Part shown: in pieces, positions 2,296-17,934 of the stretch
How the letters are laid out: every line of letters begins with the position of its first letter
Numbering within the stretch: position 1 is the stretch's first letter
Source of the DNA: a virus
Virus record (IMG/VR): IMGVR_UViG_3300020467_000012
Span: 1-42,345 of that record
Direction: 5' to 3' (one strand)
DNA length: 42,345 bases
Translations under genes and position numbers: made by a program
Notes under the pieces: model-generated
What the model saw: the letters and a program-made list of their open reading frames with translations, nothing else
Told to the model about the DNA's origin: nothing
Databases searched by the model: none

Positions 2296-3627
2296 TTATT
2301 GTTTGGTTATCTTAATATATCCATCTCCTGTGTATGTACTAGCAGTATTACTTGTATTACCACCTGCCTGATTCTGTGCATTGGTTCCAGCATTGTAAGA
2401 ACCTCCACCACCTCCACCAGTTGATCCAGAAGACCATTGACCTGAAGTGCAACCTCCAGTCCAACCTCCACCAGCACCTGGTCCAGATAGTTGTCCTCCA
2501 CCACCTCCACCAAATCCACCTTTATTTCCTGATCCATAGCAACAGTTACCATCTCCACCTACCATACCATTATTAAATCCTTGACCACCGTAAGCAGTAC
2601 AACAATGACCACCGCCATTCTGACCACCAGTCAAGTATCCACCACCAGCACCACCCATGTATCCACCACTGGTATTTCCACCATACCCATTACTAGGTTG
2701 TGAAGGGTTATAGTAACAAGTTGGTCTTCCACCTGATTGTCCAGATTGACCTCTTGCCCATGATGTAGGTCTGCTACATGACCATCCCCAGTTGTTACTA
2801 GGAGATCCACCAGCACCACCAGCAATAAGAAGAGGAGATCCACTTGTAGCGTTCTTAACAAATGATCCTCCACCTCCACCTGCCTCATTACCATGAGGTG
2901 AATAGTACTGACCACCACCAACACCAACTACCATTTCAAGTTGATCTCCTTTAGTAAGTGAGAAAGTTCCTGTAATCTTTGCACCCCAATAATCAGTATA
3001 CCCATAATTATAGTCTCTTCCTCCTCTTGCTCCACCTGCTTCTATCTGATAATTAGCATCTTCAGGAACAGTCCATAGTTGATAACCTTGATAAGTTCCT
3101 TGACCAAAGTTAGTACCATCATTCCAAGGTTGACCACTATATTCTGAGGTCATTTGACTTTGGTTGGGACCAGTCTTACTACCTCTACTTACAATAGATT
3201 TGAATGTAAATGATGAGAAATCAAATAATTTTCCACCAGCACCACCTCCAAATGGTGTAATCCAACCTGCTTCCTCCTCCTCGTCATTATCTCCAGGTTC
3301 GCCTGGATCAAAGTATATCTCTATCTCTTCTATTTCTGTATTATATCCAATCAAACCATTTTGTAGATTAGTTGATGGTTTTGTTGATTCATCCCATGTA
3401 GGTAAAACATCAACTGCTCTACCCACCTCAATCCAAGAACTACCTGACCATACACATAAAGTTTCTTTCTCGTTATCATATATTAATGCACCTGAATGAG
3501 ATCCAGTCATTCCAGATGGTCGGTTAGCAGTAGTAACTGAAGGAACCATTATTCCTTTATTACCAGTTACCATACCACTTACGTTAATGGTACCTGCTGA
3601 TAGGAGTCTTGATGAAAATTCTGACAT
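2296..3627 (-). CDS. Glycine-rich tail fibre/adhesin with ALK/LTK-like glycine-rich domain (paralogue A)
   Basis: This is a 443-residue virion-type protein. Residues 1-125 carry two copies of the short fibre domain seen across this block (pattern RP-x-G-x-IYN...W-G-S-x-W). Residues 138-443 resemble the animal ALK/LTK ectodomain: GPNQSQMTSEY, then GYQLWTVPED, YQIEAGGARGG, TGTFSLTKGDQL, VVGVGGG, GGGGGSF and PLLIAGGAGG, then long Gly runs ending DGYIKITKQ. Seven Cys, including two CC pairs, lie in the Gly-rich part. The order of these blocks matches what I know of the ALK glycine-rich domain (Pfam Gly_rich, PF12810). The likely role is distal receptor binding, with Gly runs folding as polyglycine-II helices as in the S16 gp38 adhesin. 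A late promoter and GGAGG precede the start. It is close to 5613-6908 over its C-terminal two thirds. Confidence 0.82.
   Translation of the reverse strand: MSEFSSRLLSAGTINVSGMVTGNKGIMVPSVTTANRPSGMTGSHSGALIYDNEKETLCVWSGSSWIEVGRAVDVLPTWDESTKPSTNLQNGLIGYNTEIEEIEIYFDPGEPGDNDEEEEAGWITPFGGGAGGKLFDFSSFTFKSIVSRGSKTGPNQSQMTSEYSGQPWNDGTNFGQGTYQGYQLWTVPEDANYQIEAGGARGGRDYNYGYTDYWGAKITGTFSLTKGDQLEMVVGVGGGQYYSPHGNEAGGGGGSFVKNATSGSPLLIAGGAGGSPSNNWGWSCSRPTSWARGQSGQSGGRPTCYYNPSQPSNGYGGNTSGGYMGGAGGGYLTGGQNGGGHCCTAYGGQGFNNGMVGGDGNCCYGSGNKGGFGGGGGGQLSGPGAGGGWTGGCTSGQWSSGSTGGGGGGSYNAGTNAQNQAGGNTSNTASTYTGDGYIKITKQ
2450..2487. repeat. Direct repeat shared by the two adhesin paralogues, copy 1a
   Basis: A 38-base exact match to 5767-5804 inside the Gly-rich coding region, about 3.3 kb apart in direct orientation. 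With the copies at 2692-2733 and 3190-3227, it marks recent duplication or gene conversion. Confidence 0.85.
2692..2733. repeat. Direct repeat shared by the two adhesin paralogues, copy 2a
   Basis: A 42-base exact match to 6015-6056, covering the region that encodes the Cys-Tyr-Tyr-Asn-Pro-Ser-Gln motif. Confidence 0.85.
3190..3227. repeat. Direct repeat shared by the two adhesin paralogues, copy 3a
   Basis: A 38-base exact match to 6513-6550, encoding the start of the ALK-like module (FDFSSFTFKSIV). Confidence 0.85.
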
Positions 3628-3650
3628 GACTGTATACTATTCCTCCATTA

Positions 3651-3657
3651 TATTTAT
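3651..3657 (-). promoter_or_regulatory. T4-type late promoter -10 (ATAAATA)
   Basis: Minus-strand ATAAATA lies 23 bases before the start at 3627, followed by GGAGGAA. It overlaps the end of the next upstream gene, as most late boxes in this window do. Confidence 0.65.
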
Positions 3658-4784
3658 TGGTCTGAGGTGTTGGTACTTGGAAATGCTCTATCTGGTCCCC
3701 ATATAATTCTTACTGCACCTATACCACCATAAGAACCCCAAGAGTCGTTTGATCCAGCACCTCCACCATAATCACCACCTGGAACATCTGGGTCATTACC
3801 TGTGTTTCCTCCACCATTAGAACCACCTGATCCACCACGACCAGCACCACCACTACTGGAACTTACTTGTCCATTAGCACCTTGACCATTGAGACCTACG
3901 CCTCCACCGCCTCCTCCATAGGATTCGGAAGAACCAGCATATCCACCTGATCCACCGCCTCCAGCACCATTTCCACCAGTACCCCAACCTGAAGTATGGT
4001 GACCTCCATATCCTCCATTTCCTGAGTATCCACCAGCACCACCTCCACCACAAGATTGTCCTGTATCACTTAAACTACTTCTGTTACCATCTCCACCATT
4101 ACCACCAAATCCTCCACCTTGAGAAGATCCACCTGAACCACCAAATCCTCCACCTTGACCACCGTAACCTGGTCTACTAGCAGAACCATTTCTATCTCTA
4201 CCAGTTCCACCTCCTCCACCACCATACACAGTATTAGTGTCTATAAAGTATGAAGTTCCACCATTACCAGCATAATTTCCTGGAGATGCTGGTGTTCCTT
4301 TTGCTCCTACAAATACAGTATAACTCTGACCTGGTTGAACTGGGATAGCATTTGCCCATCCAAGACCACCACCTCCACCTGCACCTTGTTCATCTCTGGT
4401 AGAACCACCACCAGCACCAACAGCAACTACACAGACATCATAAACATTATCAGGACATGTCCATGAGAATGATCCTGAAGATGTCCATTTCTCTTGACCT
4501 GAAACAGTTGTTAGACCACTACCAGCACCACCTTGAGGATTTGTAACTGGTATCCATGTCTCACCATCGTATACTTCTATAGCAAGTAAGGTTTCATTAA
4601 TTCTTATCATCCCAACTTGGGGATTTGTTGGTCTTTGTCCTGTTGTGCCAGATGGTAGACATATCTGACCATTTTGTCCCATAGCAAACTGCCCAAAGAT
4701 ATTAAGATGGTCTTGACCATCCATCTGAAGCATCATCTCCGATTGCTCTGGACCATATAATTCATCAAATCTTATAATACTCAT
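3654..4784 (-). CDS. Glycine-rich tail fibre protein, GAVRIIWG-ending type
   Basis: This 376-residue protein has an N-terminal short fibre domain around residues 40-85 (TGQRPTNPQVGMIRIN, then YDGETWIP). A Gly-rich body follows, opening with SGSFSWTCPDNVYDV and PGQSYTVFVGAKG and ending GAVRIIWGPDRAFPS. That ending is common in glycine-rich fibre proteins of marine phages. The body differs in layout from the ALK-like paralogues (2296, 5613, 6945): it lacks their GPxxSQ and WTVP blocks at the start, so it is a second glycine-rich fold type (Gly_rich_2-like). The start directly abuts the stop of the 102-residue gene upstream. The role is presumably host attachment or fibre decoration; the receptor is unknown. 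Confidence 0.75.
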   Translation of the reverse strand: MSIIRFDELYGPEQSEMMLQMDGQDHLNIFGQFAMGQNGQICLPSGTTGQRPTNPQVGMIRINETLLAIEVYDGETWIPVTNPQGGAGSGLTTVSGQEKWTSSGSFSWTCPDNVYDVCVVAVGAGGGSTRDEQGAGGGGGLGWANAIPVQPGQSYTVFVGAKGTPASPGNYAGNGGTSYFIDTNTVYGGGGGGTGRDRNGSASRPGYGGQGGGFGGSGGSSQGGGFGGNGGDGNRSSLSDTGQSCGGGGAGGYSGNGGYGGHHTSGWGTGGNGAGGGGSGGYAGSSESYGGGGGGVGLNGQGANGQVSSSSGGAGRGGSGGSNGGGNTGNDPDVPGGDYGGGAGSNDSWGSYGGIGAVRIIWGPDRAFPSTNTSDQ

Positions 4785-5093
4785 TTATGGATCCTCCTCT
4801 TCTTCAGGTTCTGGTGCAGTATTAATCTTCCACCACTCAGTACCATTATAATATTCTAATCCAATAGTACTTCCTGTTTCGGAATCAGTATCAGTATTCC
4901 ATCTAAGATAACCTGTAAGTGGATTCTGTGGTCTCTGTGATGTAGTACCTGTTGGTAACTGAAATGCTTGTGAAGTACAATGACTTAAGTCAACAACACC
5001 ATCCACCTCAAAGGTATGACCAGCACTAACACTAACCTGACCTAATGTAGGACCAATACCAGATATTTTATGTGTCGTTACTTTCGCTGACAT
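4785..5093 (-). CDS. Short fibre-domain protein, 102 residues
   Basis: It contains the same short fibre domain as its neighbours (LPTGTTSQRPQNPLTGYLRWN ... YYNGTEWWKI pattern, residues 43-90) and stops after an acidic tail (EPEEEED) without any glycine-rich body. It may be a stand-alone fibre foot or linker that binds the partner encoded immediately downstream, or a remnant of a longer fibre whose C-terminal part now forms a separate gene. Its start shares a base with the stop of the coiled-coil gene upstream (TAATG), suggesting coupled synthesis. Confidence 0.7.
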   Translation of the reverse strand: MSAKVTTHKISGIGPTLGQVSVSAGHTFEVDGVVDLSHCTSQAFQLPTGTTSQRPQNPLTGYLRWNTDTDSETGSTIGLEYYNGTEWWKINTAPEPEEEEDP

Positions 5094-5380
5094 TACTCTT
5101 CAGGCGGTGTTGCTGGTGGATCTATATTATTAATAGGATCGTCTTCTGGATATGGTATAACAGCATTTTCTTCTTCATCCAATGCTTCCTGTGCTTTCCT
5201 ATTTGCAAGTGCAGCAGCATGTACTCCAGATTGTATATCTTTAGTAATAACTAAATCTGCCTCTAGTACAAACAATTCCCTTTGATGGCTCCTTGCTGTT
5301 TCTAGTTGCTCTTCCAAACTACGAATAGATGCTTCTATAGCGATTTGTTTTTCTTTTAGTTCTGAAGGTGTCATAATCAA
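5093..5380 (-). CDS. Small coiled-coil protein, 95 residues, fibre block
   Basis: Residues 5-50 are a strongly predicted alpha-helical heptad region (LKEKQIAIEASIRSLEEQLE), followed by an Ala-rich helix and an acidic, Pro-rich tail ending PPATPPEE. No enzyme motif is present. The coiled coil and its place between fibre genes suggest a trimerisation factor, fibre chaperone or linker; that is inference. A late -10 box lies 16 bases before the start. The start could also be the second in-frame ATG (MTPSELKE). Confidence 0.65.
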   Translation of the reverse strand: MIMTPSELKEKQIAIEASIRSLEEQLETARSHQRELFVLEADLVITKDIQSGVHAAALANRKAQEALDEEENAVIPYPEDDPINNIDPPATPPEE

Positions 5381-5396
5381 TAAACTATCCTGACAC

Positions 5397-5403
5397 TATT
5401 TAT
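5397..5403 (-). promoter_or_regulatory. T4-type late promoter -10 (ATAAATA)
   Basis: Minus-strand ATAAATA lies 16 bases before the start at 5380 and touches the stop codon of the upstream Cys-rich gene. Confidence 0.6.
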
Positions 5404-5609
5404 CACCATTTGTTAATGGGGCAATGTGCGTCTTTCATCTTTGTTTTTAATTGCATAAAGCATCCACACTTACGACATTGTTGAGTTGTTTGTTTGAATT
5501 GGTCACATGCTCTACACATGTCCATTCTTTCTTTTTTTAATTTTTCATTTGCAAATGGATTATAGGATGGATTTCCTCTCCACTTAAAACCATCATAATG
5601 AGGTGACAT
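5403..5609 (-). CDS. Small Cys-rich, probable zinc-binding protein, 68 residues
   Basis: The second half has MCRACDQF, QCRKCGCF and a final DAHCP, giving two CxxC pairs plus further Cys. This is the spacing of a compact zinc ribbon. The N-terminus (MSPHYDGFKWRGNPSYNPF) is aromatic and unstructured. It sits between fibre genes, directly downstream of paralogue B (three bases between). The role is unknown: it might be a small virion component or a regulator. I infer zinc binding from Cys spacing only. Confidence 0.65.
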   Translation of the reverse strand: MSPHYDGFKWRGNPSYNPFANEKLKKERMDMCRACDQFKQTTQQCRKCGCFMQLKTKMKDAHCPINKW

Positions 5610-5612
5610 AAT

Positions 5613-6908
5613 TTAGTTTTTAGTAATCTTAATATATCCGTTACCACTATATCCACCACCTTCAGATGATGAATTACCACCTTGTTGTGCTTGAGCATTG
5701 GTTCCAGCATTATATGAACCACCTCCACCACCATGAGTAGCACCAGATGACCACTGTCCTGAAGTACAACCTCCAGTCCAACCTCCACCAGCACCTGGTC
5801 CAGAGAGTTGACCACCGCCACCTCCACCAAATCCACCAGCATTTTGATCTGAGTTAGTATAGCAACAGTTACCTTGACCACCTACCATACCATTATTATA
5901 TCCTTGACCACCATAAGCAGTACAACAGTGACCACCACCATTTTGACCACCAGTTAAATATCCTCCTCCAGCACCACCCATGTATCCACCAGATGTGTTA
6001 CCACCATATCCAGGACTAGGTTGTGAAGGGTTATAGTAACAAGTTGGTCTTCCACCATATTCACCTGATTGTCCATATCCCCATGAAGTAGGTCTGCTAC
6101 ATGACCATCCCCATGATGCACCACCAGCACTACCTCCTCCACCACCAGCAATAATTAATGGAGAACTACCTGTCTTGTTAACAACAAATGATCCTCCACC
6201 ACCACCTGCTTCATGTCCATGAGGTGAATAGTATTGGTTACCACCAACACCAACAACCATTGATAATTCTGTTTCTTTAGTTAAAGCAAATGTTCCTGTA
6301 ATCTTTGCACCCCAAAGATTTGATTGTCCATAGTTTAAATCTCTACCACCTCTTGCTCCACCAACCTCAATAGTATAATTACCATCTTCAGGAACAGTCC
6401 ATACTTGATAACCTTGATAATCTCCTTGCTTAAAGTATTGTGATGCCCAAGGTTGTCCAGAATACTCGCTACTCATTTGACTTGAGTTTGGACCTTGCCT
6501 ACTACCTCTACCTACAATAGATTTGAATGTAAATGATGAGAAATCAAATAGAGCAGCACCAGCACCGTCAGCAGCATTAGAACCAAATGTTACCCAATCA
6601 GAACCATTGAAAATCTCTGCCTGACCTGTTGTTGTATTAAAACCAAACTGTCCTGTAGATGGTGACGTTGGTCTTCCTTCTTCTCCTGACCATGTTCTTA
6701 AATTACCAGCACCTAAACTTAACCAAGTACTTCCTTTCCACAACTCAACATCCTGTCCAGTTGTATTATAAATTATCACCCCTGGATCAGCACTAGCAGG
6801 TTTTCCAGCATCCGCATAATTTGGTGCTTTTAATGCGGTATTAGCGGATACCATTCCTGTCGCATGTACATTCGCTGCTGTAACGGTATCTACGTTGAGA
6901 TTACTCAT
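5613..6908 (-). CDS. Glycine-rich tail fibre/adhesin with ALK/LTK-like glycine-rich domain (paralogue B)
   Basis: This 431-residue paralogue of 2296-3627 has two short fibre domains in residues 1-110 (VIIYNTTGQ...WKGSTW and FGFNTTTGQ...FNGSDW). The ALK-like module spans residues 123-431: GPNSSQMSSEY, YQVWTVPEDG, IEVGGARGG, TGTFALTKE, VVGVGGN, GGGGGSF, PLIIAGGGGG, then Gly runs ending NGYIKITKN. All seven Cys of the paralogue's Gly-rich part are kept in the same contexts (SCSRP, PTCYY, HCC, NCC, GGCTS). The C-terminal domains are close to each other even at the DNA level, while the N-terminal fibre domains have diverged. That is the reverse of the usual fibre pattern. A late box lies 25 bases upstream. 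The likely role is host attachment. Confidence 0.82.
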   Translation of the reverse strand: MSNLNVDTVTAANVHATGMVSANTALKAPNYADAGKPASADPGVIIYNTTGQDVELWKGSTWLSLGAGNLRTWSGEEGRPTSPSTGQFGFNTTTGQAEIFNGSDWVTFGSNAADGAGAALFDFSSFTFKSIVGRGSRQGPNSSQMSSEYSGQPWASQYFKQGDYQGYQVWTVPEDGNYTIEVGGARGGRDLNYGQSNLWGAKITGTFALTKETELSMVVGVGGNQYYSPHGHEAGGGGGSFVVNKTGSSPLIIAGGGGGSAGGASWGWSCSRPTSWGYGQSGEYGGRPTCYYNPSQPSPGYGGNTSGGYMGGAGGGYLTGGQNGGGHCCTAYGGQGYNNGMVGGQGNCCYTNSDQNAGGFGGGGGGQLSGPGAGGGWTGGCTSGQWSSGATHGGGGGSYNAGTNAQAQQGGNSSSEGGGYSGNGYIKITKN

Positions 6909-6933
6909 AACTCCATCTATTACCTATCTTATG

Positions 6934-6940
6934 TATTTAT
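6934..6940 (-). promoter_or_regulatory. T4-type late promoter -10 (ATAAATA)
   Basis: Minus-strand ATAAATA, preceded by TT, lies 25 bases before the start at 6908 in a 36-base gap. Confidence 0.65.
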
Positions 6941-6944
6941 AATT

Positions 6945-8147
6945 TTAAACAGACTTAAGTGTTACTTTAACATATCCCCATCCTTGTTGCCCACCTTCAC
7001 TACTCGTATTATTTCCTTTATTCTGACTTGATCCTGCGTATAGTGAAGATCCTGTCCAAATATAGGATCCTCCACCACCTCCACCCCAACCGTTTCCTCC
7101 GTCACAACCAGATCCACCGCCAGAGTAACCGCCACCGCCTCCTCCACCGTTGTCTCCACCTTGTGCACCACCACCCATTCCAAATCCACCATAATATGAT
7201 GCTTGCTTTCCTCGGAAGTTAGATGTGTTACCACCTGATCCACCTTGGTTACCGTAGGAGTTCCACCCTCCTCCAGATCCACCATTACCATAGGTATCAC
7301 CACCTGAGTTACCACCAGAACCACCACTGGTTCCACAACCAGGAGATCCACCAGCAGTGCTACTACTTGTAGCATTATAACCATTACTGGTATTATAACC
7401 AGCACCACCTCCTCCACCTGCTGCTAGAAGTGGGTAAGAATCGCCTCTATTTACGTATAGAAATGATCCTCCTCCACCTCCACCATTCTGTGAATTTTGT
7501 CCCTGTTGTCCTACAACAATCATAACTTTATCACCACCATTAAAGGTGAAATCTCCTTCTACAGTATATCCCCAACCTGGTGTTCTATAACCACCATAAC
7601 CACTAGATTGTCCTCCCTTTGCACCTGCAACTTCAAACGTCCAAACACCAGTTCCAGGAACAGTCCATTGCATAACACCATCATATGATGGTGTAGTTAA
7701 ATATTCATTCTCCCAAGCATTAGAAGCATTATAACTGGAATGTGATCTTACACTATTAATATCGGGTGCTATGTATGTATTACTACTACCACCTCTTCCA
7801 CCAGAAGTGAAAGTAAATGATGATCCTGTTTCCCAAGGGTATAAAAATTCTCCTGCTGCATCTGCTCCATCAGCACCACTACTAATAATATAACCCCAAC
7901 CTCCTTTACCACCATGCTTCCAATATTCCAACTTACCTGTCTTTGTATTCATAAAAATAGATCCATAAACAGGATCTTGAGGTCTAGCAAAGACATTTGC
8001 ATCTGGATCACCACCAGGCACAGGCAAATAAGATTGATTCTGCAATCTTAAATCACTCTCCATCTTAAGAGTACTATCATTCGCCAAATTTATTTTAAAA
8101 TTAGGAGAGTTACCTTGTAATGCTGCTACTCTAAGTTCGCTTGTCAT
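6945..8147 (-). CDS. Glycine-rich tail fibre protein with ALK/LTK-like domain (paralogue C, diverged)
   Basis: A 400-residue protein. The N-terminal 1-100 holds one short fibre domain (ARPQDPVYGSIFMN, then LEYWKHGG). Residues 111-400 follow the ALK-like order: FTFTSGGRGG, MQWTVPGTGVWTFEVAGAKGG, GDFTFNGGDK, VVGQQGQ, GGGGGGSF, PLLAAGGGGG, then Gly runs ending GYVKVTLKSV. VGQQG is the same string I recall in human ALK. It has far fewer Cys (two) than paralogues A and B and no long DNA identity with them, so it split off earlier. It directly abuts the short fibre protein upstream (stop at 8148) and probably shares its transcript. Confidence 0.78.
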   Translation of the reverse strand: MTSELRVAALQGNSPNFKINLANDSTLKMESDLRLQNQSYLPVPGGDPDANVFARPQDPVYGSIFMNTKTGKLEYWKHGGKGGWGYIISSGADGADAAGEFLYPWETGSSFTFTSGGRGGSSNTYIAPDINSVRSHSSYNASNAWENEYLTTPSYDGVMQWTVPGTGVWTFEVAGAKGGQSSGYGGYRTPGWGYTVEGDFTFNGGDKVMIVVGQQGQNSQNGGGGGGSFLYVNRGDSYPLLAAGGGGGAGYNTSNGYNATSSSTAGGSPGCGTSGGSGGNSGGDTYGNGGSGGGWNSYGNQGGSGGNTSNFRGKQASYYGGFGMGGGAQGGDNGGGGGGGYSGGGSGCDGGNGWGGGGGGSYIWTGSSLYAGSSQNKGNNTSSEGGQQGWGYVKVTLKSV

Positions 8148-8570
8148 TTAGATTACACTCCATGCTGCTCCACTTTCTATAGTAACAGTGTAACCATTAG
8201 CAATAGTTACTGGACCAGCAGTAAATCCATTTGTAAATTTAGCATCATTATTTGCTGTTGGACCTACAGTAATATTTTCTGAAATAATATTATGATTCGT
8301 TCTTATAACACTTTCTTCTCCTAATGCTGGACCACCACCTGCAACTGGAGCCCATCCAGCAGCACCTGTTCCATCATCGTTAACATATATCTCTGCATTA
8401 TCTATCTCACTGTTATACCGTAAAGTACCAGCAACAACACCAACAGGTCTTTGTGCTATATTACCAGATGGTAATCTAAAGACACTGTTAGAGTTTAAGA
8501 AACTAAGTGTAGTGATAATTGCTTCAGTGGAAGTCGATATCTGATTTCCACTAATTCTTGAAACTGCCAT
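8148..8570 (-). CDS. Short fibre-domain protein, 140 residues
   Basis: The N-terminus (MAVSRISGNQIS) and residues 33-75 (RLPSGNIAQRPVGVVAGTLRYN ... GWAPV pattern) match the fibre domain in the neighbouring Gly-rich proteins. The C-terminal half is a beta-rich stretch (SENITVGPT, GYTVTIESGAAWSVI) of the type that closes small fibre and spike proteins. The ribosome binding site AAGGAGG is excellent and a CTAAATA late box precedes it, so this is likely an abundant structural protein and the first gene of the unit that includes 6945-8147. Confidence 0.72.
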   Translation of the reverse strand: MAVSRISGNQISTSTEAIITTLSFLNSNSVFRLPSGNIAQRPVGVVAGTLRYNSEIDNAEIYVNDDGTGAAGWAPVAGGGPALGEESVIRTNHNIISENITVGPTANNDAKFTNGFTAGPVTIANGYTVTIESGAAWSVI

Positions 8571-8590: not shown

Positions 8591-8597
8591 TATTTAG
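8591..8597 (-). promoter_or_regulatory. T4-type late promoter -10 (CTAAATA)
   Basis: Minus-strand CTAAATA overlaps the stop codon of the 1320-residue gene and lies 20 bases before the start at 8570, followed by AAGGAGG. Confidence 0.65.
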
Positions 8598-11500
8598 ATA
8601 GGTAATTCTAAAATATGAACTGTATCTGTATTCAATGGTGCATCACCTGAACTGAATACAATATTTGCACCAAGAGTATCAACAGTATAGTTAGTACCTG
8701 CTATCTGTGCTACACCATTCAAGAATACTAATACAGAGTCATCAGTATGTTGAATACCAGCACCATAAGTTGTTAATGCAAATGTTAATGTTGATCCATC
8801 ACCACTATATGATCTAGTAATATACTTATCGGATGCAACACCACCTCGACCAGTTACAACTAAGTCACCATCTACCTTAGCATTACCTAATATATCAACT
8901 CTAAAGTCAGCAGTTGCTGTCTTACCAATACCAATATTTTGAGTGTTACTAAAGGTAGAAATATCAATAACACCTGTGTCTGTTAATCCAAACTCTCTCC
9001 ACTCTTGAGAATAACGAATCCAACCAAGTGATTTACCTGGAACCCAGTTTATATTATAAACTAAGTCACCATCAGCAGGAGTATCATATCCTGTTATGTT
9101 AGAGAAGTCTGGTTGTCCAGTTGCTAGCTCTGGTGCTAGTAGAGTTTGCTTAATAACTGTACCATCTTGGTTGAAGTATGAAATCTTCTTAGCAGATAAG
9201 TTATCAGTAAACGTTGTCTGTCCTTGGAATGTAACAGGACCAGCGAATATAGATTCTAACTGGTTAGATGCTCCACCAATTACAGTTATCTTATCAGTTA
9301 TAACCAACTCAGAGAATGTTTCAATAGTAGTATTTTCTTCACCAACAACATTCAACTGTGCAATATCTTCGTTAGTGATCTGACCAGTAACAGGGTTAAT
9401 GACCTGGTTACCAATGAATAGGTCACCATTTGAGTTAAGACCAGAGTAGAACGCAACTCCTGCTGCCTCTTTAATAGACTGAGAGAACCTAACTTGGTTT
9501 TGTGTAAGAGTCTCAACCTGTGTTTGAGGGAACGCAGTTGAATAGTTACCTGGACCAAAACCAAGATACTCAAACGTATGGTTACCAGATCTTAGAATTG
9601 AGTGTCGTCTAAACTCTACTGCTATTGGTGCTACCGTACCATCATTATTCTGTCTTATCTTAATCTTTCTTACTTCCTCATCACCAGCACGAGCAGTTAA
9701 TTCAACGTTAGATAATCTACCATTAACTGAATCAAAGTTAGGTGTAGTACCTGGTTGTGTCCAACCTGTGTCTGCTAGTAAGAACTCCGTTGCTTCTTTA
9801 GTAATACTTCTTTGAGGATCTAAATTAGGAGTTGGAGTTGCACCATCAGTTGCATTAACTAAACCAATAATTTGGTTATCAGCAACAGATATAGCAGGAT
9901 CTGGATCAGCAAGAGGATTATCTCTATCGAATGTAGGATATACTTCGTTAACATTCTGAGAGAAGAATCTATCATTAAAGTTAGAAGTTGAAGGTGCAAT
10001 AGATGCACATAATAATGTTAGGTAATAGATACCATCATCAACACCTCGAACAAATGGTTGTACAACTTCAATATCGTAAATGTAATAACACTTAGATAAT
10101 GCATATGATGTAGTATCACTATTCAATGGTTGTAATACATAACCAGATAGAGGATCTCTTGGTAATGGGTTAGTCTTATCCTTATCAATTACATAACGGA
10201 ATCTATATGTTCTATCTTGTAAGTCTCTTGGGTCAGGTATTCTCTTAAGGAATGTAGTTGGTGTGAAGTTAACTGTATTGTAAGTTGCATTAGTTGATAA
10301 TGTATCATAGATCATGTTATTAACAGAATCTACAGAAAGATACCATCCACCAACTGTATCTGGTGCACCACCTATAGTATATGTTTGATTATCAAATTGT
10401 ATTGGAGATCCAGGATTACCAGCACCTACACCAGAAATACTAGGTCCATAAGGTGATATAGATGCAGTATGAATTGTTGCTTCATTTGCACCATTAGCAA
10501 CAAGTAAGCAGTTAATTTTATCTGCTACTGCACTAAGACCAGTACCATCTTGTCTAGCACCGATTGTATAACCCTGTACTCTTGTTGTTGGTGGTGATGC
10601 TTCTACAGTATAACCATAGAGATATAATCTAGTTCCTGGAGTACCACCTTGCCCTGCTAATGCAGAGTTAATTGTCTTAGTTCTCTTAATATCAACGTTA
10701 ACCCAGTTAACAGAAGTCTCTTCACCAAAAATAACATTACCATCAACAACAGCAGTATTAGTTTCTGTTAATGTAATAACTCTAGTATTGGTATTAACAG
10801 ATCCAACAGTTGCACCTATACCAATACCATTACCATGAACTGTCATTCCTTCAATAACACCATTAACAGATCCATCATTAGCTAATGTAATATTACCACC
10901 ATTATTCGCACCAGTAGCACTTGTTGATATAACATTAAGTGCTTTAGGTGGAATAACGTGAGTTAATGCACCTGCTTTATCTTTAGAGAATGATTTCTTC
11001 TTAAATCCAGCAGATCTAAGTGCAGTATTACCAAAGTTACTGTTACTGTTAGTAATTGACATGTCAGCACCATTATGTGCTGAGAAATGAGCATAGTATC
11101 CAACAGCGAACACCGAGACCGCCTGAATAAATGCGTCATTAGATGCAACAATGTGTCTATGACCCCAATCCTTTCTATATTCTGCATAACCATCTAAATG
11201 AGCACCATCTCCAGATGTTGCTACATCATAGTTACCAGTTGATGCGTTATATCTTACAAATGCTCTGTCGTCTTTTTGTAGTGATAGTCCAGTGAACTGT
11301 GCCACAACCATTGATTTGAAACCAGTTGATTTATTACCATCAGCATGCATACCATTCATACCCCACACTGATCTTAGTGATAGGTTGAAGGCATAAGGTG
11401 ACGCTGAGTCAACTGTATCAATCTCAGTCTTAACTGTTACGTTTGAACCAACAGCATTACCTGAAGGTTCTGCTGCCATTTGATAAGTGAATACGTTACC

Positions 11501-12556
11501 AGATGCAGATGTTACAGTAAATGAACCATTATATATTCCAGAGTCTAATTCTGATTGTGGTCCAGTTGAACCTGTAACTCCAGAAATATTAATGTTAACA
11601 CCAACAGAGAATCCATGATCTCTTGGGTTATCAAATTCATCAACAGTAACAGCAGTAGCAGTCTGACCGTTTCTTGTTATTTGTAATACTTTATATTCAT
11701 CAGAAATTGGACCAACAATTCTGTTTTCCTCAACCCTTGCCTGAATTTGGTCAGTTGAAGGATCACCAGATGTATCAGGAATTGTAGCAAATGCTTTAGA
11801 TATCTTCTGATAATATATGTCTAAGTCTGTTCTGTCTAAAATATTTGGAACAGCAGAGTAATCTGCATTAGGAACAGTTCCTTCAGCAATAAGTTGTGAT
11901 AGTGTATTTAAACCATCAGCAAACTCAAAACATGTAAGTCTATGATGTGAATACTTAGGTGGTAATGTCTCTACACTATCAGGTTTGAAATATACACCTT
12001 CTTCTGCTCCATCAAAGAATGAGAATTGCCAGAAGTAAGTACCACCAGTTACTTTGAAGATTGCAGTTCTTGCTGGTACTTGTGCTTCTGTGTTTATACC
12101 TTTAGCAGCGTATGTTGTAGGATAAGGAACATACTTTGGAATTATTTTAGTTCTTCTAAGGTCACTACCAACAACAGAACAACCTCTAGGTACGATAACA
12201 CCACCTTCGATTGAATTGTATTTGTAGAGTACATTATTAGGAGAAGTTAAGTCTAGGTTAGAGTTTTCATCAATAGGTGCAACGTTTGTATAAAGAATAT
12301 CTCCTGGTCTATTATCTATTTCATATACTGCTGGATATAAGTAAATTGAAAATGCGTCAAATTCGTCATTACTTAAACCGACTCTATATGAAAATCGTGC
12401 CACCTCAAGGAAAGCACGTTGCAAACTCTTAAACGGACGTAATGCCGAGTTACCCCTGTTATCAATGGCATCAGAAGCATCGAAATCATCAGGGTTTACG
12501 TAGATAATACGTCCAGTTCTGGACGTAATAATATTCTTTAACCTAGTTAGTGACAT
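8594..12556 (-). CDS. Large virion structural protein, 1320 residues, probable fibre or spike with beta-helix character
   Basis: The opening MSLTRLKNIITSRTGRII is a recurrent start of large cyanophage structural proteins. Residues 30-60 (ASDAIDNRGNSALRPFKSLQRAF) resemble the entry motif of right-handed beta-helix tail spikes, and the centre is rich in short Gly/Asn/Ser/Thr beta repeats. The last 70 residues (DSVLVFLNGVAQIAGTNYTV ... VHILELPI pattern) form a small C-terminal domain common at fibre ends. No membrane segment is present, and no catalytic pair that I can assign. It is the longest gene in the window, with its own late box 25 bases upstream. The likely role is a long tail fibre or baseplate-attached spike; which one cannot be told from sequence alone. 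Confidence 0.75.
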   Translation of the reverse strand: MSLTRLKNIITSRTGRIIYVNPDDFDASDAIDNRGNSALRPFKSLQRAFLEVARFSYRVGLSNDEFDAFSIYLYPAVYEIDNRPGDILYTNVAPIDENSNLDLTSPNNVLYKYNSIEGGVIVPRGCSVVGSDLRRTKIIPKYVPYPTTYAAKGINTEAQVPARTAIFKVTGGTYFWQFSFFDGAEEGVYFKPDSVETLPPKYSHHRLTCFEFADGLNTLSQLIAEGTVPNADYSAVPNILDRTDLDIYYQKISKAFATIPDTSGDPSTDQIQARVEENRIVGPISDEYKVLQITRNGQTATAVTVDEFDNPRDHGFSVGVNINISGVTGSTGPQSELDSGIYNGSFTVTSASGNVFTYQMAAEPSGNAVGSNVTVKTEIDTVDSASPYAFNLSLRSVWGMNGMHADGNKSTGFKSMVVAQFTGLSLQKDDRAFVRYNASTGNYDVATSGDGAHLDGYAEYRKDWGHRHIVASNDAFIQAVSVFAVGYYAHFSAHNGADMSITNSNSNFGNTALRSAGFKKKSFSKDKAGALTHVIPPKALNVISTSATGANNGGNITLANDGSVNGVIEGMTVHGNGIGIGATVGSVNTNTRVITLTETNTAVVDGNVIFGEETSVNWVNVDIKRTKTINSALAGQGGTPGTRLYLYGYTVEASPPTTRVQGYTIGARQDGTGLSAVADKINCLLVANGANEATIHTASISPYGPSISGVGAGNPGSPIQFDNQTYTIGGAPDTVGGWYLSVDSVNNMIYDTLSTNATYNTVNFTPTTFLKRIPDPRDLQDRTYRFRYVIDKDKTNPLPRDPLSGYVLQPLNSDTTSYALSKCYYIYDIEVVQPFVRGVDDGIYYLTLLCASIAPSTSNFNDRFFSQNVNEVYPTFDRDNPLADPDPAISVADNQIIGLVNATDGATPTPNLDPQRSITKEATEFLLADTGWTQPGTTPNFDSVNGRLSNVELTARAGDEEVRKIKIRQNNDGTVAPIAVEFRRHSILRSGNHTFEYLGFGPGNYSTAFPQTQVETLTQNQVRFSQSIKEAAGVAFYSGLNSNGDLFIGNQVINPVTGQITNEDIAQLNVVGEENTTIETFSELVITDKITVIGGASNQLESIFAGPVTFQGQTTFTDNLSAKKISYFNQDGTVIKQTLLAPELATGQPDFSNITGYDTPADGDLVYNINWVPGKSLGWIRYSQEWREFGLTDTGVIDISTFSNTQNIGIGKTATADFRVDILGNAKVDGDLVVTGRGGVASDKYITRSYSGDGSTLTFALTTYGAGIQHTDDSVLVFLNGVAQIAGTNYTVDTLGANIVFSSGDAPLNTDTVHILELPI

Positions 12557-16071: not shown

Positions 16072-16219
16072 TTTGTTTCTCCTTAATGTCGTACTCTATT
16101 ACAATTTTTTTAGAGGATCTACCTGTAGAATTCAATGTATGAATTCTTGTAGCAGTACCTTCTAATTCAGCAGCAATACAAAGTATCTCTGAAATTAATT
16201 CACCTTCATTATCTATCAT
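16061..16219 (-). CDS. Unknown small protein, 52 residues
   Basis: The ATG at 16219 overlaps the TGA of the oxygenase upstream (ATGA), and the stop at 16061 lies 11 bases inside the next small gene. The product (MIDNEGELISEILCIAAELEG ... VIEYDIKEKQ pattern) looks like a compact alpha/beta domain. The tail of the gene supplies the AAGGAG ribosome binding site of the following gene. No family is recognised. Confidence 0.6.
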   Translation of the reverse strand: MIDNEGELISEILCIAAELEGTATRIHTLNSTGRSSKKIVIEYDIKEKQNEN

Positions 16220-16866
16220 CGGTTTTGAAATAAAATGTTAAAGGACAAACTCATTCTATCATATCCACTCTCATTTGTTGCTACTCCATGATCCAGATAT
16301 GCTGGAAATAATAGCAATTTACCCTGTTGAGGTATCTGAGATTGTTTATAAGCATAATGATTAAAAGTGAATGATGTAATCATTGATGGGCAAGGAGATT
16401 GAAAAAATAAATCTCCTGTTTCATCTTTATCATCACCTACTTTATAATAGTAAACACCAGAAATATCACAATGTCCATGATTATGGATATGTGCATAATC
16501 TCTTTTCTCAAATTTAGTTATCCAAGAACTAACAATATCATACTTTAAAGGATTCTCAGGGTTAAAATAACCACTCTGTTCAAACTCTATAGCATTAAGA
16601 TAATGATCAATATGCTTATGAATCTGTTCAGAGAAATTAACCATATTATGTTCTCCTATAACATTTGTTTTAAAACTAGGAGCAGATAATTTATGTGTCT
16701 GTCCAAAATTAGGATTGTATATGAATTCTAATTTATCACACACACCATCTATTTCACTTTGAACTCTTTCAAAATTATCAACCATTGCAGCATACACTGG
16801 GGTTGGAAATAAATGATATAATACAGATCTATCTGTAGGTCGCTTAACAGGTTGATGAAAATCCAT
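16216..16866 (-). CDS. 2OG-Fe(II) oxygenase family protein, 216 residues
   Basis: The protein fits the cyanophage/cyanobacterial oxygenase family with YxLFPTPVY near the N-terminus (TIGR02466 / 2OG-FeII_Oxy_5 type). The metal and cosubstrate region reads HIHNHGHCDISGVYY at residues 126-140. Then come P-Q-Q-G-K-LLLFPAYLDHGV (distal His193) and YDRMSLSFN (Arg204, which would hold 2-oxoglutarate). These are the expected positions in order, so the enzyme is probably active. The substrate is unknown; host or phage protein hydroxylation is possible. It is coupled with the 62-residue gene upstream (one-base overlap) and the 52-residue gene downstream. A second copy lies at 17227-17934. Confidence 0.85.
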   Translation of the reverse strand: MDFHQPVKRPTDRSVLYHLFPTPVYAAMVDNFERVQSEIDGVCDKLEFIYNPNFGQTHKLSAPSFKTNVIGEHNMVNFSEQIHKHIDHYLNAIEFEQSGYFNPENPLKYDIVSSWITKFEKRDYAHIHNHGHCDISGVYYYKVGDDKDETGDLFFQSPCPSMITSFTFNHYAYKQSQIPQQGKLLLFPAYLDHGVATNESGYDRMSLSFNILFQNR

Positions 16867-17226: not shown

Positions 17227-17934
17227 TTATTTATACCCACCTGGCTCCCCACCATCAACACGATCTTGCACCAAATCTAAATTAAATGAACAAGAAATCC
17301 TGTCCTCATCACTCTTATTTGGTTCTACATGATGTCTAAGATGTGCAGGGAAAAATAACATTGTACCTTCTTGAGGTGGCATATAATATGACCCAAATTG
17401 TAAATGCTTTTCTTTAAATTCATCAGTATAATTATATAATTCTTCCCAAGCAGCATATGCTAATTGATTAGAAAAACATATCTCTCCACCAATAACACCT
17501 TCACCTTCAAGTTTAGTAGTTGAATAACCGTATACATTAATAGAACCACCACCAAGAAATTTTTCTGGAATAGGTGGTACTTTTATATACAATGCACCTG
17601 ACATATGACATGATGGATGATCATGTTGAATATTAAAATTCCCTTTACCATTGATATTAATCCAACAAGCTGTCAAATATAAATTAACATTAGGTTTAAA
17701 GACCTTATTATTATTGAGATAATATCCTAAAGTATCTAAAACTGCTCTTCTAACTGGGTTATCATGTAAATGGTAAGTATCATCAGATTGCCATCCACCT
17801 CTATTAGTTCTGTATATCTTTCCATCTGGGTCTTTACCCATTTCATCGTAACAATATTGCTGAAGTTCTTGTTTTCTATCTTGAAAATTATAAACTTCAA
17901 GATCATGTACAATGTTTGGAAATAATTTATACAT
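17227..17934 (-). CDS. 2OG-Fe(II) oxygenase family protein, 235 residues
   Basis: This second member of the same oxygenase family begins MYKLFPNIVHDLEVY. The metal segment QHDHPSCHMSGALY is at residues 103-116, the distal LFFPAHLRHHV (His201/202) near residue 200, and the 2OG-binding DRISCSFN with Arg212 after it. Thus all catalytic elements seem intact. A 30-residue insertion rich in Gly (GGGSINVYGYS to GGEICF) separates the two halves. It is only distantly like 16216-16866, so they are not a recent duplication. The substrate is unknown. The gene starts eight bases inside the preceding small basic gene. Confidence 0.85.
   Translation of the reverse strand: MYKLFPNIVHDLEVYNFQDRKQELQQYCYDEMGKDPDGKIYRTNRGGWQSDDTYHLHDNPVRRAVLDTLGYYLNNNKVFKPNVNLYLTACWININGKGNFNIQHDHPSCHMSGALYIKVPPIPEKFLGGGSINVYGYSTTKLEGEGVIGGEICFSNQLAYAAWEELYNYTDEFKEKHLQFGSYYMPPQEGTMLFFPAHLRHHVEPNKSDEDRISCSFNLDLVQDRVDGGEPGGYK
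17228..17235 (-). promoter_or_regulatory. T4-type late promoter -10, consensus TATAAATA
   Basis: Minus-strand TATAAATA, the exact T4 late consensus, 27 bases before the start at 17200. It overlaps the last codons of the second oxygenase gene. Confidence 0.72.

Follow-up and report, generated by a model that had tools for sequence, protein, structure and literature searches.

The IMG/VR virus record IMGVR_UViG_3300020467_000012, from a marine cyanobacterial virus and analysed as one stretch of 42,345 bases (the window) whose structural genes are of the T4-like cyanophage type, raises the question of why three of its fibre-like proteins should resemble the ligand-binding part of the animal receptors ALK and LTK, and what such a module might do for a phage. 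The three open reading frames (ORFs) were confirmed at 2296–3627, 5613–6908, and 6945–8147, each on the minus strand, and encode proteins of 443, 431, and 400 amino acids (aa), referred to here as B′, B, and A, respectively. We propose, at a probability of roughly three in four, that these proteins are modular, exchangeable host-binding tail-fibre tips (adhesins) whose C-terminal module is homologous to the TG module of ALK and LTK.

Protein A contains an N-terminal anchor (approximately aa 1–106) and an ALK/LTK-type module (6957–7829), supported by phmmer and structural modeling; the module comprises a low-glycine TNF-like half (7500–7829, 19% Gly) and a glycine-rich insertion with a closing strand (6957–7499, 39% Gly). 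In protein B, an anchor with two short stretches (aa 26–69 and 70–112) is joined to a module at 5619–6548, of which 6240–6548 is the low-glycine TNF-like half (17% Gly). B′ also combines an anchor with such a module (2302–3225; low-glycine TNF-like half at 2914–3225, 17% Gly); it is paralogous to B, and the glycine-rich tips of the two are very similar, with 82.4% identity in the glycine-rich half and 30.7% in the anchor. The ordered series of sequence blocks that a sequence-only reading of this DNA had reported is present in all three proteins with only small departures from consensus: LTKET stands in place of GxFxLxxGD in B, and A has WTFEVAGAKGG for YxIExxGAxGG as well as GDFTFNGGD, GGFGMGGGA, and GYVKV. 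The GPxxSQMxxEY block was found in two of the three, as claimed. The blocks also run in the order of human ALK, as can be seen from a single alignment that pairs profile positions 6–277 with 12–288 of the 7mzy chain and scores 62.3 bits after subtraction of a 55-bit composition bias.

Single-sequence phmmer searches of the PDB were carried out with proteins A and B. Protein A matched LTK (E 2.7e-9) and ALK (E 2.1e-7) in two stretches, and protein B matched ALK at E 0.016 only. A profile of 15 modules found ALK at 9e-18 in one alignment spanning the module, and a profile of 40 modules (38 viral and 2 cellular) found LTK at E 2.5e-34, ALK at 1.1e-31, and the nematode receptor SCD-2 at 2.3e-14, with the next PDB match, phospholipase C entry 8yk5, at 0.0015. 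The two cellular rows come from metagenome-assembled genomes (MAGs) of Bacteroidota (L035) and Nanohalarchaeota (L036), and their inclusion probably raises the score of this profile.

The same likeness was examined in the low-glycine half alone, taken as the first 93–111 residues of each module (11–23% Gly), using profiles that exclude L035 and L036. With 18 rows (3 from the window and 15 from the IMG/VR contigs with the closest relatives), ALK was found at 4.6e-12, LTK at 5.8e-12, and SCD-2 at 3.3e-6, the next match being at 0.0032; with 38 viral rows, the values were 6.8e-17, 7.5e-15, and 3.8e-10, the next match being 8yk5 at 3.9e-4. The ALK matches of this half carry just 0.8 bits of bias. 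As composition controls, two further single-sequence searches were made, the glycine control on profiles being the omission of the glycine-rich half. The glycine-rich neighbour at 3654–4784 (30% Gly) gave one match at E 2 and the reversed 6957–7829 module one match at E 0.28, and neither search found ALK or LTK. Because the low-glycine half by itself still finds both receptors and the controls do not, glycine composition is rejected as the whole cause of the similarity. The similarity thus extends beyond shared glycine content and spans the TNF-like and glycine-rich parts, as had been suggested, and the match that might have vanished on removal of glycine was retained. By sequence and predicted shape, the phage module is a true homologue of the ligand-binding part of ALK and LTK. 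The phospholipase C entry, residues 521–570 of chain A, is the sole non-ALK entry at E < 0.01 in both larger profiles; its match spans the stretch from G-x-Q-x-WTVP to GxFxL and is perhaps a distant half-module.

The predicted fold is that of the ALK/LTK beta-sandwich, with a glycine-rich insertion between strands and a closing strand, which agrees with the beta-sandwich plus glycine-rich part anticipated from sequence. The 6957–7829 module, modeled from a 40-row alignment, reached a predicted local distance difference test score (pLDDT) of 85.9 and a predicted template modeling score (pTM) of 0.90, and full-length B (5616–6908) reached 80.2 and 0.72, respectively. In Foldseek searches with both models, all 21 matches at E <= 0.001 were ALK, LTK, or SCD-2. 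VIA-align superposed the A module on LTK with Z 30.2 (2.2 Å, 239 residues, 32% identity) and B (aa 124–431) on LTK with Z 33.0 (2.5 Å, 261 residues, 31% identity); across both models, all ALK and LTK rows fell at Z 27.9–33.0 over 235–264 residues with 29–33% identity, and SCD-2 at 22.5 and 22.4. Scores were much lower for the fibre of cyanophage Pam3 (Z 8.9/8.4 with the A model and 8.2/7.7 with the B model, 132–137 residues), the Bxb1 tail tip (8.1 and 8.2), and TNF-family proteins (approximately 3–5).

The anchors have PHROG matches in common with the small fibre proteins around them, and natural variation suggests that what they carry can be replaced. In four contigs (L013–L016), the protein A anchor is kept, with 55–60% identity over the first 95 aa, and the C-terminus that follows it contains 10–11% Gly, aligns at 24–27%, and is unmatched by the module profile. 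These proteins (L013:854-1717, L014:863-1711, L015:867-1718, and L016:863-1711) lie directly after the same 140-aa protein, and in L013–L015 an extra gene of 675–677 aa precedes B. On this sequence evidence, the four contigs represent a natural exchange of the tip.

Modularity of B and B′ was compared in the six contigs that hold both. The anchors divide according to gene (support 100/100), but for the glycine-rich halves the division follows phage lineage (100/100) and, in L013, the contig (97/96). In the glycine-rich halves, mean identity is 82.8% between paralogues of one contig but 65.5% between orthologues of the two lineages; in the anchors, the corresponding values are 31.7% and 65.3%. 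We read the likeness of the paralogous tips as gene conversion or tip copying, which would keep two fibres aimed at one receptor, although it may have a structural reason instead.

In sequence and prediction, each protein combines an N-terminal anchor like those of the surrounding small fibre proteins with a C-terminal TG (TNF-like plus glycine-rich) module, in which a beta-sandwich holds a long inserted glycine-rich stretch and is closed by the last strand. In the mechanism that we propose, by analogy with S16 gp38 and Pam3 gp24 (PMC9608196), the glycine stretches would form a bundle of polyglycine-II-like helices that contacts the host surface through its distal loops, and the fibre would be trimeric. 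The proteins are encoded in the tail-fibre region and share their anchor with neighbouring fibre proteins; they would be present in the virion and bind the host. Phage biology would gain a class of fibre tip with an exchangeable C-terminus and with tips that stay alike between paralogues. More broadly, one ancestral extracellular module would have descendants in use among animals, in several prokaryotic lineages, and in their viruses.

The module was found in other viruses. Actinomycetia phage DSL-LC01 encodes a 2853-aa protein among collagen-like genes (WJZ48558.1; L001:5506-12357 of OQ999401.1) that matches aa 133–253 of protein B with 40.3% identity (tblastn E 2e-9) and is annotated "ALK tyrosine kinase receptor." The module is also carried by Synechococcus phage S-CREM1 (SCREM1_65, L002; laboratory host CB0101; tblastn E 3e-6), where genes annotated as 2OG-Fe(II) oxygenases lie near it, and by at least 14 further IMG/VR loci (L021–L034). 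In BFVD, 50 viral structures were matched at E <= 0.001 by fold only, nine of which are named "receptor protein-tyrosine kinase," including one from Tetraselmis virus 1. Such a name on phage proteins was most likely carried over by annotation from ALK via the shared module. Algal-virus fold matches in BFVD include A0A2P0VMX4 of Tetraselmis virus 1, a nucleocytovirus (E 1.4e-7), and A0A7M3UP39 of Pyramimonas orientalis virus (E 1.4e-8), and these copies are a possible bridge to eukaryotes.

Homologues could also be found in cells. A 1362-aa protein from a Cryomorphaceae (Bacteroidota) MAG (L035) has, by eye, a signal-like N-terminal segment, and a search with just its module found LTK at 1.1e-14. 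In a Nanohalarchaeota MAG the module (L036) lies among genes that look archaeal by eye, and a protein from another locus of the same phylum (L047) matches human ALK at 3e-19, FTTCG...C motif included. The low-glycine profile at E <= 0.001 found the module in at least 14 of 395 genomes of the L035 phylum, at least 8 of 28 of the L036 phylum, and at least 5 of 379 of the L037 phylum, counts that include the starting genomes. Several of these matches span the profile incompletely, and in many genomes no more than 12 candidates each were scored. The corresponding counts with PF12810 were 5 of 296, 8 of 28, and 2 of 192.

Several cellular loci show unusual coding or arrangement. Under translation table 11, the module at L037:2374-3501 is broken by TGA; under code 25, in which TGA encodes glycine, a 357-residue frame that contains 20 TGA codons is read without a break, and the resulting ALK-type module is complete, TGA codons lying in its glycine runs. 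Because recoding yields an unbroken, complete module in this way, the genome concerned (G003), which holds several such modules (L037, L094, L099, L101, L103, L105, L107, and L109), probably reads TGA as glycine. Genome G615 has eleven matches within approximately 30 kb (L060, L072, and L074–L082), an array of mostly partial modules, and genome G777 has eight matches (L096 and the even numbers L100–L112), again mostly partial modules, inside a single open frame of 7672 aa.

Several other accounts of these proteins have to be weighed. That the ALK likeness is convergence, with glycine-rich sequences looking alike and a common beta-sandwich adding the rest, would fit the many glycines in both halves, the 40–58-bit bias on single-sequence matches of the glycine half, the nonsignificant match of protein B by itself, and the glycine-rich tip on a different base in S16 gp38 (PMC9608196). 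It is nonetheless the least probable of these accounts, since the low-glycine half alone reaches ALK at the E values and negligible bias given above, the neighbour and the reversed module find nothing comparable, and the nanohaloarchaeal and Bacteroidota proteins bridge the gap to human ALK and LTK. Nearly as improbable is that the module is simply another glycine-rich tip of the Pam3 gp24 or S16 gp38 kind, to which ALK is no closer; the same general build, a TNF-like base with a glycine-rich tip, does occur in a cyanophage (PMC9608196), but the ALK/LTK superpositions exceed those on Pam3 several-fold in Z over nearly twice the residues, and neither protein was among the matches up to E 10 in four profile searches of the PDB. 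Pam3 gp24 was rejected as a close relative, being a distant fold match only. The proteins could instead be structural or decorative parts of the fibre or baseplate, such as spacers or stabilisers, and the succession of three copies and a Gly_rich_2 protein might point to a coat-like role. We regard this as unlikely, if less so than the preceding two, because a C-terminus swapped on a kept anchor and paralogous tips that follow the lineage are the behaviour of receptor-binding parts, and because S16 gp38 and Pam3 gp24, solved proteins of similar build, are described as host-recognition tips (PMC9608196).

A number of observations weigh against host-binding tips built on an ALK/LTK-type module. 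None of the three window proteins reaches the PF12810 cut-off of 24.5 bits, B scoring 20.2 bits and the other two giving no hit, and PF12810 is matched by only 10 of 40 aligned relatives at E <= 0.001; the Pfam search that had been suggested as a check is consequently weak on these proteins, and PF12810 was discarded as a decisive test for being too insensitive here. A PF12810 scan of the window's whole record gave no match, but its controls gave none either, so that it carries no weight. Among close phages of one lineage, the glycine-rich halves nevertheless pair by gene, as in L014/L015 and in B′ of the window, L008, and L009, and the TNF-like halves follow the lineage pattern in L014/L015 only; any homogenising process would accordingly be occasional and centred on the tip. 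Variable blocks are found in both halves, beyond the presumed distal loops. The protein B anchor was modeled at low confidence (block means 31–69), and the likeness of its aa 26–69 to the start of the major tropism determinant of a Bordetella phage (MTD, 1yu0) and part of CBA120 TSP3, and of aa 70–112 to TSP3, is suggestive only, these matches being short (Z 5.2–5.5, 39–42 residues). The models are of monomers, the trimer thus being putative, and the polyglycine-II geometry of the glycine stretches is suggested by the likeness to ALK.

Phylogenetic trees were constructed from 105 columns of the low-glycine half, with two animal rows (PDB chains) and midpoint rooting, to place the receptor module among its relatives. 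The sequence-only reading had raised either a phage origin or a shared ancestor. Ancestry common to the phage and ALK/LTK modules is supported, whereas the trees do not favour a phage as donor of the ALK module, within the limits set by their rooting and sampling. In a 53-row tree, ALK and LTK are joined by four cellular rows and set off from the 47 viral rows, none of which falls with them (99/97). A 68-row tree groups 12 rows, 10 cellular and 2 animal, at 94/86, a support short of the star threshold. This group contains none of the 47 viral rows and leaves out 9 of the 19 cellular rows, of which seven, the recoded rows of G003, are placed among viral rows and two, from Bacteroidota, at the midpoint root. 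Approximately unbiased (AU) tests did not reject trees in which the four cellular rows were held together with the animals outside (p 0.31) or in which seven archaeal-phylum and four Bacteroidota rows (11 rows) were held together (p 0.24). A tree constrained to keep the animals beside the three window rows was rejected (p 6e-39), which says little because the three window rows are not one clade themselves. An FTTCG...C cysteine pair is present in ALK, LTK, and three of the four cellular prokaryotic rows; all 47 viral rows lack it, as do the three window proteins. That a phage fibre or some other virus was the source of the animal module is accordingly improbable, given this grouping and the distribution of the cysteine pair, although the module is frequent in phages and the algal-virus fold matches make transfer to eukaryotes conceivable. 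The scores against human ALK are divided: the best rows are L047 (70.9 bits), L036 (53.6), and one Bacteroidota gene seen at two loci (L040/L035, 51.2/48.0), but viral L029 (51.0) equals this last gene, and L029, L018 (45.8), L030 (45.3), and L033 (44.9) all exceed cellular L048 (44.0). Against LTK, the five best rows, from four genes, are all cellular. A further reading, to which we give somewhat less than even odds, is descent of the ALK/LTK ligand-binding module from a prokaryotic extracellular adhesin module, an adhesin turned cytokine receptor. If so, the adhesin module would survive in surface or secreted proteins of nanohaloarchaea, Bacteroidota, and a group of small-genome bacteria, and in phage fibres as a host-recognition tip. 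With relatives in bacteria and archaea as well, the module appears to be an ancient extracellular unit whose range extends far outside the animals.

The genes around the three proteins fit a tail-fibre locus of a cyanophage. The window at 8000–30000 was matched by 243 phage records, all but one named Synechococcus, Prochlorococcus, or Cyanophage; among the 15 matches listed, identity was 75–81% over 20–22% of the query. The three fibre-like ORFs adjoin, on its downstream side, a large tail fibre gene on the minus strand (8594–12556, 1320 aa, phrog_529) that has its counterpart in the "fiber" gene of Prochlorococcus phage P-SSM4. Between it and A (6945–8147) lies a small phrog_7459 protein (8148–8570, minus strand) that also weakly matches the anchor PHROGs. 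B (5613–6908) is followed by a 95-aa ORF (5093–5380), a small minus-strand protein of mostly anchor type (4785–5093; phrog_1325 E 2.7e-19 and phrog_5636 E 2.8e-19 over aa 4–92 of 102), the Gly-rich fibre-like neighbour of another family used above as a composition control (3654–4784, minus strand; PF21722 Gly_rich_2, E 2.4e-8), and B′ (2296–3627). The run begins alike in P-SSM4, with the fibre, the small protein, and then unnamed proteins; it recurs with the same spacing in two IMG/VR contigs (L003 and L004), in which B′ is cut by the locus end, and A followed by B was found in three more (L005–L007). Two 2OG-Fe(II) oxygenase genes (PF13759) lie amid the tail genes of the window at 16216–16866 and 17227–17934.

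Part of this likeness is already known from phage structures. Pam3 gp24 (7ypx and 7yfw) is a myocyanophage fibre with a TNF-like base and a glycine-rich distal tip that was likened in 2022 to Caenorhabditis elegans ALK (7LIR; root mean square deviation 2.6 Å over 125 residues) (PMC9608196), and database names tag phage members of the family. It differs in having a helical shaft and a separate chaperone (PMC9608196), and the window module matches its fold far more weakly (Z 7.7–8.9 over 132–137 residues) than that of ALK and LTK. S16 gp38 (6F45) is a glycine-rich host-recognition tip (PMC9608196 and PMC13243192) whose middle domain is a beta-helix (PMC9608196), and it has been grouped with LTK and ALK as a glycine-rich polyproline-II (PPII) bundle (PMC13243192); it was not among the rows shown by the Foldseek and VIA-align searches, which excludes nothing. 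Neither sequence homology of phage proteins with ALK nor the prokaryotic spread of the module or the likeness of paralogous tips was found in the open-licence PubMed Central literature searched. What is added here is composition-controlled evidence, at the level of sequence, for close phage, bacterial, and archaeal relatives of the module by which a human receptor binds its ligand. With such relatives, the origin of this module becomes testable by trees, structural work gains viral and prokaryotic homologues, including window copies without the FTTCG...C cysteine pair, and the shared module probably explains the name "receptor tyrosine kinase" on phage proteins. No kinase family was matched in the three window proteins (400–443 aa) up to a Pfam limit of E 10, and nothing in their sequences suggests that they would bind ALKAL. 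Compared with the TG modules of ALK and LTK (7nx0, 7nx1, 7mzy, and 9g5i), SCD-2 (7lir), and PF12810, the window modules have the same block order and the same predicted fold; they differ in lacking a cysteine pair in the first strand region and in being carried on a phage anchor instead.

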